A stretch of 64,000 nucleotides of DNA from Gilliamella sp. ESL0405 (GTDB taxonomy: Bacteria > Pseudomonadota > Gammaproteobacteria > Enterobacterales > Orbaceae): the NCBI RefSeq assembly GCF_019469205.1, contig NZ_CP048265.1, positions 1,674,001-1,738,000 of the forward strand, written 5' to 3'. A program made the translations under genes and the position numbers. Under the pieces are notes generated by a model, which was not told the DNA's origin, ran no database searches, and saw nothing but the letters and a program-made list of their open reading frames with translations. Of this stretch, positions 33,093 to 62,581 are shown in pieces (position 1 is the first letter of the stretch; each line of letters begins with the position of its first letter).

Positions 33093-33236
33093 AATAAATT
33101 CTCGTGACTAAATTTTGGCTAAATAATATAACGTGATATTTAACAATTTAATAATAAAAAAAAATTATCAACCCTACCCAGCAACGAAAATTACTAATAC
33201 AAAGCAATGTGATATAAAAGCAAAGCCTAAAAAACA

Positions 33237-33280
33237 TTGACAAGAAGTTTAAGAAAATACCTATGTTTTAGTATAAAAAC
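33237..33280 (+). repeat. Dispersed ~44-bp motif on the trailer side of CRISPR array 1
   Basis: TTGACAAGAAGTTTAAGAAA followed by a CTATGTTTTAGTATAAAAC end. Related copies lie at 34255, 34305, 35205, 35255, 36154 and 36204 beside the other arrays. Confidence 0.7.
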
Positions 33281-33302
33281 AAAAGTTTTAGATATTACAA
33301 AA

Positions 33303-33751
33303 ATATCCATAATCCTATGCAGTTGTAAAGTTTTTGTCTGGTAAAAAAACAGGAAATTGTTGTTTCTAAACGGCTTATGCAGCTGTAAACAGATTAGTGA
33401 AAGATTGAAAGCCCCCTACAGTATTTCTAAACAGCTTATCCAGCTTTAAACGGCTCTGGTGATAATTCAGCGGATTTGGATGATTTCTAAACAGCTTATC
33501 CAGCTTTAAACACATATTGACATCAGAAGCGTTAAAGCGCGTTTTTCTAAACAGCTTATCCAGCTTTAAACCCTATATATTCATATTTGAATCTGCCGTC
33601 AATTTTCTAAACAGCTTATCCAGCTTTAAACGATTTGCGTTCAGTGTTTGTAGTGTTGCTAATTTTCTAAACAGCTTATCCAGCTTTAAACCATCAAACG
33701 GCGCTCCTGAGCTGGCATCGACTTTTCTAAACAGCTTATCCAGCTTTAAAC
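33303..33751 (-). CRISPR. CRISPR array 1, type I-F-like (8 repeats, 7 spacers)
   Basis: 28-bp repeats begin at 33303 (degenerate), 33363, 33424, 33484, 33544, 33604, 33664 and 33724. Spacers are 32 bp except 33391-33423, which is 33. Read on the minus strand the repeat starts GTTTA and ends GTTTAGAAA, with a central inverted repeat, like type I-F repeats (GTTCACTGCC...AGAAA). The decayed repeat at the low-coordinate end and the shared flank at the other end place the leader at 33752 onward, so transcription is on the minus strand. The six leader-side repeats carry two substitutions relative to arrays 2 and 3; the second trailer-side repeat keeps the other form. No cas genes adjoin. Confidence 0.95.
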
Positions 33752-34373
33752 TAGAATCTCACATACTATAAACATCGTTTATAAAAACACAAAGTGCAAT
33801 TTTAGGTTTAAAAACCCTTTTTTCTAACGCTTTTGCAATATATTGATTTTTAATATTTTTATTTTTAGCTAAAAAAAAGGGGTTATAAAGTTTGTATTTT
33901 TAACTCCACGACTATTTCTAAACGACTTACCATTACCTTCCACAAAAACAGACAAGTGCACCAGACCGCACCTTCACAAAGCGCCGACAACTGAGAGAGG
34001 TTAGCACGCCAAACAAGGATGTTTGGCGAGGCGCTGCTTTGTCCGGAACAAATCAGCGCCGGTGCGTCAAGACCGAACGAAGGCGGAGGGCAGTCGAAGA
34101 CCGCTTTGGGTGGTGCTGCGAGGGGGTTATTAGGGGGATTTCGCACCAAATCCCCCTAATTCGGACGCTGACACCGTAATGAAAATATCAACCAATTAAC
34201 AGCGTCCGAAACCTGCAAACCAAAAACCCACAACTTTCAATAAAAGTATAAAACCTTGTCAAGAACTTTCAGAAAATATAGGTGTTTAAGTAAAAACACA
34301 AATCATTGTAAAAAAGTTTCAGAAAATACCCACGTTTCAGTATAAAAACAAAAGTTTTAGATATTTCAAAAAT
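33752..34373 (-). repeat. Inter-array block, copy 1: leader, GC-rich hairpin element, two 44-bp motifs
   Basis: The first ~150 bp is the AT-rich leader of array 1, with a perfect dyad TATAAACATCGTTTATA at 33767-33783. A half-repeat (TTTCTAAACGACTTA) lies at 33915-33929. A GC-rich stretch from about 33955 to 34208 holds four hairpins: 34007-34028 (CGCCAAAC/GTTTGGCG), 34030-34060 (GGCGCTG/CAGCGCC with inner TTTGT/ACAAA), 34130-34159 (12-bp stem, TTAGGGGGATTT) and 34162-34208 (CGGACGCTG/CAGCGTCCG). Two 44-bp motifs follow at 34255 and 34305. A nearly identical block begins 950 bp further on. Confidence 0.9.
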
Positions 34374-34701
34374 ATCATAAACTCCTTATGCAGCCGTAAA
34401 TATGCTAGATAAAGCTTTTGGTAAGTGTTCTGATTTATTAACGGCTTATGCAGCTGCTAAGTATTAACGGGGATCGGTATTAGCATGATGCTTTTTCTAA
34501 ACAGCTTATGCAGCTGCAAAGAGCACGAACATGGGCAAAAAACACCCGCTGCTTTTCTAAACAGCTTATGCAGCTGTAAACATGATTTGTTCAGAGTTAT
34601 TCGAAAGCTGCAATTTCTAAACAGCTTATGCAGCTGTAAACAAACCGGCGCAGAATCAAAAGTAACCGAAATCTTTCTAAACAGCTTATGCAGCTGTAAA
34701 C
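34374..34701 (-). CRISPR. CRISPR array 2, type I-F-like (6 repeats, 5 spacers)
   Basis: Repeats start at 34374 and 34434 (both degenerate), 34494 (last bases changed), 34554, 34614 and 34674, all 28 bp with 32-bp spacers. The repeat stem is ACAGCT-GCATA-AGCTGT on the minus strand. The leader follows at 34702. Four spacers on the trailer side are shared with array 3 (one with a single base difference); the leader-side spacer (34642-34673) is private. Confidence 0.95.
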
Positions 34702-35323
34702 TAGAATCTCACATACTATAAACATCGTTTATAAAAACACAAAGTGCAATTTTAGGTTTAAAAACCCTTTTTTCTAACGCTTTTGCAATATATTGATTTT
34801 TAATATTTTTATTTTTAGCTAAAAAAAAGGGGTTATAAAGTTTGTATTTTTAACTCCACGACTATTTCTAAACGACTTACCATTACCTTTCGCAAAAACA
34901 AACAAATGCACCAGACCGCACCTTCACAAAGCGCCGACAACTGAGCGAGGTTAGCACGCCAAACAAGGATGTTTGGCGAGGCGCTGCTTTGTCCGGAACA
35001 AATCAGCGCCGGTGCGTCAAGACCGAACGAAGGCGGAGGGCAGTCGAAGACCGCTTTGGGTGGTGCTGCGAGGGGGTTATTAGGGGGATTTCGCACCAAA
35101 TCCCCCTAATTCGGACGCTGACACCGTAATGAAAATATCAACCAATTAACAGCGTCCGAAACCTGCAAACCAAAAACCCACAACTTTCAATAAAAGTATA
35201 AAACCTTGTCAAGAACTTTCAGAAAATATAGGTGTTTAAGTAAAAACACAAACCATTGTAAAAAAGTTTCAGAAAATACCCACGTTTCAGTATAAAAACA
35301 AAAGTTTTAGATATTTCAAAAAT
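34702..35323 (-). repeat. Inter-array block, copy 2
   Basis: Same 622-bp length and order as copy 1 (leader dyad, half-repeat near 34865, four hairpins, 44-bp motifs at 35205 and 35255), with only a handful of base differences, for example around 34890-34950. Confidence 0.9.
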
Positions 35324-35651
35324 ATCATAAACTCCTTATGCAGCCGTAAATATGCTAGATAAAGCTTTTGGTAAGTGTTCTGATTTATTAACGGCTTATG
35401 CAGCTGCTAAGTATTAACGGGGATCGGTATTAGCATGATGCTTTTTCTAAACAGCTTATGCAGCTGCAAAGAGCACGAACATGGGCAAAAAACACCCGCT
35501 GCTTTTCTAAACAGCTTATGCAGCTGTAAACATGATTTGTTCAGAGTTACTCGAAAGCTGCAATTTCTAAACAGCTTATGCAGCTGTAAACATGCAATTC
35601 TTGATGCGTCAGCTGCGGCTGACTTTCTAAACAGCTTATGCAGCTGTAAAC
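35324..35651 (-). CRISPR. CRISPR array 3, type I-F-like (6 repeats, 5 spacers)
   Basis: Repeats start at 35324, 35384 (degenerate), 35444, 35504, 35564 and 35624: exactly 950 bp after those of array 2. Repeat sequences and the four trailer-side spacers match array 2, while the leader-side spacer at 35592-35623 is different. Leader at 35652 onward. Confidence 0.95.
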
Positions 35652-36260
35652 TAGAATCTCACATACTATAAACATCGTTTATAAAAACTCAAAGGGCAAT
35701 TTTAGGTTTAAAAACCCTTTTTTCTAACGCTTTTGCAATATATTGATTTTTAATATTTTATTTTTAGCTAAAAAAAAGGGTTTATAAAGTTTGTATTTTA
35801 AACTCCACTACTATTTTTAAACCGCTTACCATTACCTTTCCCAAAAACAAACAAGTGCACCCACCCGCACCTTCACAAAGCGCCGACAACTGAGCGAGGT
35901 TAGCACGCCAAACAAGGATGTTTGGCGAGGCGCTGCTTTGTCCGGAACAAATCAGCGCCGGTGCGTTAAGACCGAACGAAGGCGGAGGGCAGTCGAAGAC
36001 CGCTTTGGGTGGTGCTGCGAGGGGGTTATTAGGGGGATTATGCACAAAATCCCCCTAATTCGGACGCTGACATCGTATTGAAATTATCGACTAATCAACA
36101 GCGTCCGAAACCTGTAAACCAAAAACCCGCAACTTTCAATAAAAGTATAAAACCTTGTCAAGAACTTTCAGAAAATATAGGTGTTTAAGTAAAAACACAA
36201 ACTCTTGTTAAAAAGTTTCAGAAAACACCTACGTTTCAGTATAAAAACACACTTTTAACC
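35652..36260 (-). repeat. Inter-array block, copy 3 (most diverged)
   Basis: Leader, GC-rich hairpins and two 44-bp motifs (36154, 36204) in the same order, with small indels. The 12-bp TTAGGGGGATTT stem has lost one end pair and the half-repeat has drifted. No fourth array follows; the deoR-type gene starts 117 bp later. Confidence 0.85.
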
Positions 36261-36315
36261 TATTAAAAAAAACACCTCCCCCCTTCCCTTAATCACCTTT
36301 GATATTTCCCTACGA

Positions 36316-41719: not shown

Positions 41720-41912
41720 AGCTGATTGAGAATATTTTTTTACAGAATTTATACAACAAAACAACGCAAATAAGACACAGTTAACCTTGTATTAGAAAAC
41801 GTGATGAAAATCACCGCATCAGTTTACTTAAACTATCATTAAATGACAATTGAAAGATGACAAATCAACGTTTATCGATTATATTAGCCGCTCGTTTTGT
41901 TAGGTCATCTAA

Positions 41913-41950
41913 CCGTGGTTCGTAACCCATCCCACGTAAAAAAACTAGGA
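41913..41950 (+). promoter_or_regulatory. preQ1-I-like riboswitch upstream of queDE
   Basis: CCGTGG...CCACG forms P1 around the loop TTCGTAACCCATC, followed by an A-run and ACTAGGA. This has the layout of the preQ1-I aptamer (stem GG-TTC-N2-A, C-rich loop end, then A-rich tail and CTA). The pairing tail overlaps the AGGA ribosome binding site of queD, 7 bp before its ATG, which suggests translational shut-off by preQ1. Confidence 0.8.
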
Positions 41951-41957
41951 TAATATC

Positions 41958-42380
41958 ATGTTCAAAATAGCTAAAGAGTTTCAATTTGATGCTTGTCATA
42001 TGTTAGACGGGCATAATAAAAAATGTCATAACCTGCACGGTCATACCTATCGCTTATTAGTTGAGATCAGTGGTGAACTTATTACCAGCGGCTCAAGTGC
42101 TGATATGGTCATGGATTACGCTGATTTAAAAGCAATTGTTAAACAACATATTGTTGATCCGCTCGATCATGCTTATTTATACAACCAAAATAACGCTAAC
42201 GAGTGCCGGATTGCCGATTTATTAAAGCAGATGGATCGTAAAATTTTTGCCTTTCCTTGCCGTACAACTGCTGAAGGAATGTGTCAATACATCTTCGATT
42301 GCTTAGCGCAATATCTACCCGTTTCGATGATCAAACTTTGGGAAACCCCGACATCTTACTGCGAGTACCGCCGGAGCTAA
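41958..42380 (+). CDS. queD: 6-carboxy-5,6,7,8-tetrahydropterin synthase
   Basis: 140 aa. Converts dihydroneopterin triphosphate to 6-carboxytetrahydropterin in queuosine synthesis. Zinc histidines are His14 (FDACHML), His27 and His29 (CHNLHGHTY), with catalytic Cys23. The later DPLDHAYL and PTAEG-like RTTAEGMCQYIF blocks are typical. First gene of queDE behind the preQ1-type riboswitch. Confidence 0.95.
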   Translation: MFKIAKEFQFDACHMLDGHNKKCHNLHGHTYRLLVEISGELITSGSSADMVMDYADLKAIVKQHIVDPLDHAYLYNQNNANECRIADLLKQMDRKIFAFPCRTTAEGMCQYIFDCLAQYLPVSMIKLWETPTSYCEYRRS

Positions 42381-58483: not shown

Positions 58484-59707
58484 ATGTCAAAAATACCCAG
58501 TTTGCTACTTATGATGTTTTTACAATATTTTGTGCAAGGTGCATGGAATATGGTTATCGGCGCAGTACTTGCTGCTCATGATTTAAAAGAGATTGTCGGT
58601 TCAACTTATTCGGTTTTGGGCATAGCTACCATTATTTCGCCACTGTTTGTGGGTATGGTTGCCGATAGATTTATCGCCTCGCAAAAAGTCATGGGCGTGT
58701 TACACATTATTAATGCTTGTGTTTTATTTACTATTCCCAATTTTATTCTCAGCGGTAATGTGACCGGCTTTTTAATTATGATCTTTATTGTTGGCTTGCT
58801 GTTTTACCCAACTACTGCCTTAGCCAATAGCGTAAGCTTCAGACATATTGACGGTGTTCGTTGGTTCCCAATTATTCGGGTCTTTGGTACCATTGGTTTT
58901 ATGGTAGCCGGATTAATTCTCGGGTTTACCGGTTTTTCAACTTCGATTAATTCGTTTTTACTTGCCGCTGGTGCCTCTGTGGTATATGGCTTATATTGCT
59001 TTATGCTACCTAATACACCGCCAAGTGGCAAAAACAAAAAATTCTCGCTACGTGATGTTTTGTGTTTAGATGCGTTATCGCTGTTTAAAGATAAATACTT
59101 TACTATCTTTATGCTATCAACCTTTATTCTGATGATAACCAAAACAGCTTATAGTGCTTATCTACCTGTCTATTTACCGGTATTAGGTATTGAGCCGGCG
59201 TCCATGATGCAAATTGCCATTGCTACCGAAGTCATATTTATGTTTATGTTATCTTTCTTATTAAGTCGTTATGGATTTAAAAAGATCATCTTATTTGGTG
59301 CCATTTGTTGGGTAATTCGCTCTTTAATGCTGTCCTTAGCCGCCACGGCAGGAGGTGTTGAGATGTATTTCTATATTATTGGTACACTTCTGTTACAAGG
59401 TATCTGTTGGGACTTCTTCTTTACAGCCGGGGATATTTATGTAGATAAAAAAGCCGGAACTGAAATTAAAGCTCAAGCGCAAGGATTACGTTTTATTGTT
59501 TCCAATGGTTTTGGTCTGTTTATGGCAGCGTCAGTCTGTGGATTTATCAATAATCGGGTTGTAACTGAAAAGTCTTTAGAGCAAGCCGGACCTCAATGGC
59601 AGCAGTTTTGGATCTATCCGGCTGTGGTTGCGGCCATTGTGGCGGTCGGATTCTGGTTCTTCTTTAACGATAAAGATGTGATTATGACATCTAAAGCAAA
59701 ATCCTAA
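58484..59707 (+). CDS. Nucleoside:H+ symporter family permease (NupG/XapB type)
   Basis: About 407 aa, 12 TM segments. ATG at 58484 with GGAG 6 bp upstream; a TTG 12 bp earlier is unlikely. FLQYFVQGAWNMVIGAVL, FYPTTALANSVSFRHID, FPIIRVFGTIGFMVAG and QGLRFIVSNGFG follow the order in XapB/NupG. It should import nucleosides such as xanthosine or a related sugar. It ends 50 bp from the convergent LacI-type regulator. Confidence 0.88.
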   Translation: MSKIPSLLLMMFLQYFVQGAWNMVIGAVLAAHDLKEIVGSTYSVLGIATIISPLFVGMVADRFIASQKVMGVLHIINACVLFTIPNFILSGNVTGFLIMIFIVGLLFYPTTALANSVSFRHIDGVRWFPIIRVFGTIGFMVAGLILGFTGFSTSINSFLLAAGASVVYGLYCFMLPNTPPSGKNKKFSLRDVLCLDALSLFKDKYFTIFMLSTFILMITKTAYSAYLPVYLPVLGIEPASMMQIAIATEVIFMFMLSFLLSRYGFKKIILFGAICWVIRSLMLSLAATAGGVEMYFYIIGTLLLQGICWDFFFTAGDIYVDKKAGTEIKAQAQGLRFIVSNGFGLFMAASVCGFINNRVVTEKSLEQAGPQWQQFWIYPAVVAAIVAVGFWFFFNDKDVIMTSKAKS

Positions 59708-62022: not shown

Positions 62023-62579
62023 CTTGTCAAGAACTTTCAGAAAATACCCATGTTTAAGTATAAAACTGAGCTATTTTACTTTGTCATTTAGCCAGGCAAT
62101 CATTTTGGTTCCTAACGTCAGTGATATTATACAGGTAGATTTCTTGTCAAAAACTTTCAGAAAACACCTATGTTTCAGTATAAAACTGAGCTATTTTACT
62201 TTGTCATTTAGCCTGCTTTAGCAAGGCAATCAAATTTACTTGCCTAACGTCAGCGATATTATACAGGTAGATTTCTTGTCAAAAACTTTCAGAAAGCACC
62301 TATGTTTTAGTATAAAACTGAACTATTTTACTTTGCCATTTAGCCTGCTTTAGCAAGGCAATCATTTTGGTTCCTAACGTCAGTGATATTATACAGGTAG
62401 ATTTCTTGTCAAGAACTTTCAGAAAATACCTATGTTTTAGTATAAAACTGAATTATTTTACTTTGCCATTTAGCCTGCTTTAGCAAGGCAATCATTTTGC
62501 TTGCCTAACGTCAGCGATATTATACTGGCATATTTCTTGTCAAAAACTTTCAGAAAATACCTATGTTTAAGTATAAAAC
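62023..62579 (-). repeat. Tandem array of 120-132-bp units built on the dispersed 44-bp motif
   Basis: Five copies of the motif start at 62023, 62143, 62275, 62405 and 62536, with four intervening stretches that repeat CTATTTTACTTTG, TTAGCCTGCTTTAGCAAGGC and AACGTCAGTGATATTATAC. On the minus strand each unit contains TTGACA 13 bp before TATAAT, a poorly spaced promoter-like pair. The array fills the space between glnE and the LacI-SBP gene. Confidence 0.9.
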
Positions 62580-62581
62580 AG

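Follow-up and report, generated by a model that had tools for sequence, protein, structure and literature searches.

Genomes in which several CRISPR arrays coexist have been described before, and the parts of Fehrenbach et al. 2026 (PMC12814883) on which we draw take a last spacer common to several arrays as a sign of common ancestry and report that new spacers are spread over arrays with the same repeat. According to the same parts, a cas locus is accompanied by 1.48 arrays on average, with a median of two for type I-F and a maximum of 23 at one V-A locus; definitive empirical evidence as to why genomes retain several arrays is still missing, and one experiment alone is known to have followed uptake split over two arrays (PMC12814883). 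As far as the consulted portions of the sources go, IHF has a role in type I CRISPR leaders (PMC8047081) and the TwoAYGGAY family is predicted to bind CsrA (PMC4333381).

The single-contig genome of the bee-gut bacterium Gilliamella sp. ESL0405 (2,809,609 bp) carries 21 arrays with 131 spacers in 8 clusters, one of which makes up the locus described here; it lies in the window, i.e., the whole stretch of 64,000 nucleotides that was analysed (1674001-1738000 of the genome). A single cas gene set appears to serve all 21 arrays. We consider it likely (probability about 0.8) that they are the working memory banks of one type I-F system, multiplied as units of array, leader and flanking repeat; on the best reading, a system of known type has gained an unusual number of arrays through recombination between repeated flanks.

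That the window holds three CRISPR arrays with 28-bp repeats, 32-bp spacers and leader junctions at 33752, 34702 and 35652 had been predicted from its letters, and both our reading of the sequence and an array scan bear this out (Table 1); the arrays are of type I-F. On the minus strand the repeat reads GTTTACAGCTGCATAAGCTGTTTAGAAA, with variants, and since the arrays lie on that strand each leader is found to the right of its own array. Array 1 (A15) is longer than arrays 2 and 3 (A14 and A13) and its spacers are unlike theirs; the scan gave it 7 repeats and 6 spacers, to which the degenerate repeat and the terminal spacer were added by eye. Genome-wide, the 28-mer has 50 matches with up to 3 mismatches and the reversed 28-mer has none; all 50 fall inside the 8 clusters, and the scan covered stretches around hits of a genome search, arrays of at least 2 repeats being counted. 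Spacers are exactly 32 bp in 120 of the 131 cases. Leader-proximal repeats come in 12 variants, each uniform across the leader-proximal part in most arrays; 6 of these variants have an intact 6-bp stem, and in the other 6, that of array 1 included, 1-2 stem pairs are mismatched. Elsewhere in the window, a PreQ1 riboswitch (41909-41954, 48.4 bits) lies directly upstream of an ORF at 41958 that resembles queD.

Table 1. Features of the array cluster, in positions of the window
Feature	Position	Strand	Remarks
Dispersed 50-bp repeat, left end of insert	33228-33307	plus	orientation as in the right-end copies
Array 1 (A15)	33305-33751	minus	7 full repeats, then a degenerate one at the distal end (33305-33330); 7 spacers, 32-33 bp long; leader end on the right
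Leader 1	33752-33928	minus	IHF motif 33836-33848 and TATA-like box 33762-33770, both on the minus strand
Block 1, structured	33929-34373	plus	TwoAYGGAY-like core 33979-34084; Rfam match 34002-34072
Two copies of the dispersed ~50-bp repeat	34256-34352		inside the stretch of block 1, 33929-34373 (plus)
Array 2 (A14)	34374-34701	minus	6 repeats, those at the distal end degenerate; 5 spacers, the leader-proximal one found nowhere else
Leader 2	34702-34878	minus	177/177 identical to leader 1; IHF motif 34786-34798; TATA-like box 34712-34720
Block 2 with 50-bp repeats	34879-35323	plus	439/445 identical to block 1
Array 3 (A13)	35324-35651	minus	6 repeats, 5 spacers; four distal spacers in common with array 2
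Leader 3	35652-35827	minus	IHF motif 35736-35748; TATA-like box 35662-35670; 168/177 identical to leaders 1 and 2
Block 3 with 50-bp repeats	35828-36271	plus	right end of insert
Insert without counterpart in relative G002	33211-36288	none	flanking genes same as in G002

Cas1 has a single match in the genome, in a gene run with cas2-3, csy1, csy2, csy3 and csy4, and all six genes (cas1f, cas2-3f, csy1, csy2, csy3, csy4) score above the NCBIfam curated cut-offs, which makes one complete I-F operon. This operon, the 28-bp short-stem repeat with 32-bp spacers, CC, the PAM of type I-F, and the leader motifs (motifs only) together agree with type I-F. The I-F3 (Tn7-like) CRISPR transposons do, to our knowledge, without cas1 and cas2-3; both genes are present here and full-length against the NCBIfam models, which sets the system apart from them. 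The gap between cas2-3 and csy1, of 815 bp (L123:8387-9201; genome 2052386-2053200), contains a 107-aa ORF in the same direction as the operon, along with two hairpins that by eye resemble the I-F repeat, and might be a small autoregulatory module. The arrays adjacent to the cas genes, A16 and A17, form a tandem pair with a block between them; A16 (2048146-2047951) has the most diverged leader and a first spacer of 20 nt. Among the 19 arrays that bear a leader, WATCAANNNNTTR, which we take to be the IHF consensus, stands at -97 in 18, A16 being the exception, and a TATA-like box (TATAGTA) at -19 in all; a relaxed IHF motif is found at -96 to -98 in 21 of 25 aligned leaders of Gilliamella and Frischella. 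No intact leader directly adjoins A1 or A8 and, given also the missing motif of A16, some copies are therefore probably not competent.

The original prediction had further claimed that a whole unit of array, leader and element was duplicated, and had proposed aligning the units. The stretches 33752-34701 and 34702-35651, of 950 bp each, align without a gap and with 29 mismatches, 22 of which sit in the leader-proximal spacer and 7 in the remaining 918 bp; the third unit differs more, leader and block showing 42 aligned differences to unit 1 and 40 to unit 2 (168/177 in the leader and 315/332 in the block against unit 2, about 95% overall). With its mismatches concentrated in one spacer, the gapless alignment upholds that claim, and we read the locus as a tandem duplication of the entire unit, followed by uptake of new spacers. 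Two other points of the description hold in part. The "622-bp block" is right as the distance from junction to distal repeat (33752-34373), but it is really made up of a leader (about 177 bp) and a structured repeat element, and the latter is also present away from arrays. Likewise, the 950-bp spacing is true between the junctions but is no meaningful period, neighbouring junctions in other clusters lying 816-1502 bp apart; it arises because arrays 2 and 3 each happen to be 328 bp. The identity pattern would fit a single unequal exchange in which leader 3 of one sister recombined with leader 1 of the second: leaders 1 and 2 agree at 177/177 positions, blocks 1 and 2 at 439/445, and array 2 resembles array 3 save for one spacer and one base, as such an exchange would make array 2 from array 3 and follow it with copies of leader 1 and block 1. 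The resulting order would be array 1, leader 1, block 1, array 2, copy of leader 1, copy of block 1, array 3, leader 3 and block 3, and since leaders 1 and 3 first differ at 33789, the exchange could fall within the first 37 bp of the leader.

Arrays 2 and 3 have four distal spacers in common, of which three are identical and the fourth has one mismatch; their leader-proximal spacers are not the same. We take distal spacers in common to show descent from copied arrays, and the genome has three families of terminal spacers (A13/A14/A18/A19/A21; A1/A2/A8/A9; A3/A4/A5). Beyond these families and the A13/A14 spacers there are near-matches only, between A4 and A7 (one mismatch) and between A13 and A17 (six), which look like related targets captured separately. 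The difference between A13 and A14 demands at least one uptake after the duplication, and one in each copy is the simplest reading because both arrays hold five spacers; judged by sequence, a gain plus a deletion in one copy is a possible alternative at their first spacer. Several independent sites of spacer uptake, as had been predicted, find support in this difference, in arrays that share only the terminal spacer and are otherwise private, and in the IHF motif of 18 of the 19 leaders.

About 94 of the 131 spacers were searched in 11 relatives (E <=0.05), with matches at that threshold in the genomes of 8, and all spacers of at least 30 nt were then compared with the 19 target loci found. 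A total of 14 different spacers match other Gilliamella genomes with up to 5 mismatches; CC stands directly 5' of the match in 10 of these and is missing at the other 4. The window has 13 different spacers, 12 of which were compared, and outside matches exist only for the spacer A13.4/A14.4 and for A15.3, the latter without CC. The A13.4/A14.4 spacer also has matches on 5 IMG/VR contigs, at 3 mismatches and beside CC, and its target, judging from the neighbouring genes, is presumably a lambda-like tail assembly gene. Reversed spacers gave 1 match at <=7 mismatches on these target stretches. For the other 4 of the five window-spacer patterns searched, IMG/VR gave nothing. Target stretches in relative G006 contain homologues of RecT, exonuclease VIII, DnaB, endolysin and integrase. 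A search for phage targets in INPHARED returned only three Flavobacterium records at E 0.09, which we put down to chance.

When 18 leader+block units are placed in a tree, they group by locus: the 8 loci require 7 label changes, the minimum possible, against a mean of 12.6 after shuffling, which suggests that units arrived at several sites and then expanded locally. Well-supported inner branches number 3 of 15, and A11, which groups with A12 and A17 of other loci (support 96/97), is the single supported exception to the grouping by locus. With the 177-bp leader alone, A20 is closest to A5 of another cluster (98%), so that exchange between loci may blur the history; a derivation of A20 from the 370k cluster, as the leader alone would have it, was not upheld by the leader+block tree. 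At 59108-59646 of the genome (L009:7109-7647), the place of a 32-bp spacer between two CRISPR repeats is taken by 483 bp of phage-like DNA with a Phage_tail_S homologue, next to a leader with an internal deletion; possibly this is a giant untrimmed spacer.

In the window, the insert is flanked by the genes of an ABC transporter and a deoR-type regulator, between which G002, the one relative in which both neighbour genes were shown to be kept, has 144 non-aligning bp. Among 30 relatives searched with the deoR-type gene, 9 have it, and repeat, leader and block were absent from the examined deoR stretch in all 9; a 25-base match in G004 was dropped, not being the deoR-type gene. No target-site duplication could be defined at the window site, since identity to G002 is only about 78% in the deoR gene and the flanking stretches give a poor alignment. 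Of the 8 array clusters, 5 are bounded on either side by the dispersed repeat of about 50 bp. Copies of this TTGTCAAAAACTTTCAGAAAACACCTATGTTTTAGTATAAAAC-like repeat also occur at 62023-62580 of the window and at many other loci of the genome, often in tandem every 110-180 bp.

The block beside the leaders is a covarying structured element at the edge of the Rfam family TwoAYGGAY, a predicted CsrA ligand. Over 16 blocks from several species, 20 of 50 predicted pairs show a compensatory change; in the alignment of the core, pairing is preserved in 97.1% of pair cells (30-47% when slid, 87.5% when shuffled), double-change cells number 39 against a shuffled mean of 11.6, further pair types are not above the shuffles (140/500), and GGA stands in both hairpin loops in nearly all of the 16 rows. 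TwoAYGGAY (RF01731) scores 43.9 bits in the window against a gathering threshold of 43 under permissive filters, and exceeds the threshold at 6 places among 14 other stretches, all in G. bombicola; the fast filters of Rfam reported it neither in the window nor in 5 other block-bearing stretches of the genome and 2 of G005. Of 35 genomes surveyed, 28 yielded leaders and 21 yielded blocks, and no block turned up in the 7 genomes that gave no leader, 2 of which are <75% complete (Fisher p 0.0005, Spearman 0.84, both uncorrected for kinship). Our genome has the most leader hits, 20, and the next has 13. A block lies within 1 kb of 4 of the 11 leaders of G005, where rotation expects 0.08 and 12 of 20000 rotations come as high (20 block places were used, the model counts 25); G005 alone enters this comparison, since in our genome rotations near zero reproduce the actual arrangement. 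Among the 10 leaders listed for G032 (G. bombicola, judging by coordinates), 4 have a block on their outer side at a distance of 242-243 bp, as do 6 of the 13 in G031 at 191-209 bp. Away from arrays stand 18 of the 37 listed copies of our genome (38 in total), and tandem blocks without arrays occur at 1649k, 1833k, 2411-2414k and 2539-2544k. G027 has 30 blocks and 2 leader hits, the examined blocks mostly following genes of about 460 aa, which rules out the block as CRISPR-specific; as phage, plasmid or E. coli sequence it was likewise dropped, the 332 bp tested being matchless in three collections. These ~460-aa genes (L173-L180, L182, L183) are multi-copy, often tandem, with variable C-terminal positions and a block behind; the 1-2 members tested had no Pfam or NCBIfam match, and the family looks like one of variable surface proteins. 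In G. bombicola (L043, L047, L048, L061, L071, L073, L075, L089, L092), blocks begin 133-161 bp past the distal end of the array, and at some loci outward-pointing blocks also lie past the leader, so that inverted blocks flank some arrays.

It may be asked whether a single unit was misassembled as three, near-repeats in tandem being a classic source of error and several G. bombicola arrays standing at contig ends. We find this hardly conceivable: the genome is a single 2.81-Mb contig, the tandem arrangement is seen again at other clusters, array content differs between the units and 7 substitutions lie outside the one spacer, and these differences lead us to reject assembly duplication as far as sequence can tell. 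It is also very improbable that the duplicated copies are inert relics, neither acquiring nor guiding. Their short arrays with degenerate distal repeats, the want of a direct leader in A1 and A8 and of the IHF motif in A16, and stem mismatches in 6 of 12 repeat variants would suit such a view, which agrees poorly with the uniform leader-proximal repeats of most arrays, with private spacers that have CC-flanked matches in 7 arrays, and with A4 and A7 having caught near-identical targets separately.

As for the manner of multiplication, array and leader might have travelled on a non-autonomous element, delimited by the block and/or the 50-bp repeats and moved by some recombinase, the tandems being successive insertions. 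In keeping with this, 50-bp repeats of the same direction bound the insert, the G002 site lacks a counterpart of it, the distance between block and array is near-constant in other species (G032, G031), blocks also stand behind the tandem ~460-aa genes of G027, and 8 dispersed clusters are found in one genome; we nonetheless regard it as unlikely, though worth serious attention, since no transposase was recognised by eye among the ORFs adjoining clusters, the junctions are blurred with no target-site duplication seen, and the units group by locus in the tree. Mobilisation by IS200/IS605 or a REP transposase was set aside, there being 0 Y1 transposase matches in the genome (the control was positive in 5 of 14 genomes). 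It is quite doubtful that the TwoAYGGAY-like repeat is a general cassette partner in Gilliamella, multiplying and dispersing its neighbours (array+leader units here, variable ~460-aa genes elsewhere), with many uptake sites and possibly wired to CsrA. A regulatory role of the block through CsrA is speculative, and we deem it decidedly improbable that the block is a transcribed CsrA-binding RNA and that a link between CRISPR and Csr carbon storage was selected rather than hitchhiking. The TwoAYGGAY scores here and at the 6 places in G. bombicola, the pair conservation with its excess of double changes, the conserved loop GGA, the CsrA gene of the genome and the CsrA binding predicted for the family (in the portion of PMC4333381 used) argue for such a link; against it, block orientation and side relative to the leader vary between species, nearly half of the listed copies (18/37) lie off arrays and G027 has 30 copies for 2 leader hits, the Rfam fast filters were silent in 7 other block-holding stretches (our genome and G005), and the measure based on further pair types stayed within the shuffles.

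Under the preferred reading of array units multiplied within one I-F system, a unit would have reached the ABC-transporter/deoR gap, probably by recombination via the block or the bounding 50-bp repeats, and the unequal exchange would have made the tandem. Cas1 and Cas2-3 would then have put new spacers beside the copied leaders, a step needed for at least one copy and simplest for both, by which arrays 2 and 3 would be alike in old spacers and unlike in the newest, and crRNAs from the arrays would be loaded into one Csy complex and direct it against Gilliamella prophages. The block would be a structured element in its own right, carried along and the source of long direct repeats. It seems reasonable to see in this genome a natural test bed, with one cas operon, near-identical tandem leaders and up to 18 motif-complete leaders in one cell, each array being recognisable from its spacers and often also from a repeat variant of its own; the structured element linked to the arrays offers a testable route for their multiplication.

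Already known are type I-F CRISPR-Cas, multi-array genomes and last spacers in common (PMC12814883, in the parts consulted); new, within the literature searched, are leader-bearing units in tandem that took up spacers afterwards, so many arrays for a single I-F locus, and the association with a structured repeat. No report of dispersed array units in Gilliamella was met in that literature, which was mostly non-subscription. With TwoAYGGAY (RF01731) the block shares two GGA-loop hairpins and one multibranch core, matching model positions 43-120 of 168, whereas it is larger, multi-copy, partly tandem and placed beside CRISPR leaders or other genes, with a near-threshold score in the window. Compared with type I-F CRISPR-Cas, the six genes, the 28-bp hairpin repeat, the 32-bp spacers, the mostly present CC and the IHF motif in leaders are the same, while 21 arrays, 12 leader-proximal repeat variants, tandem array+leader units and the cas2-3/csy1 gap of 815 bp with its ORF are different. 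Finally, shared last spacers are alike in this genome and in the multi-array genomes of PMC12814883, but 21 arrays for one I-F locus come near the extreme and, by the sections compared, units with tandem leaders are found only here.
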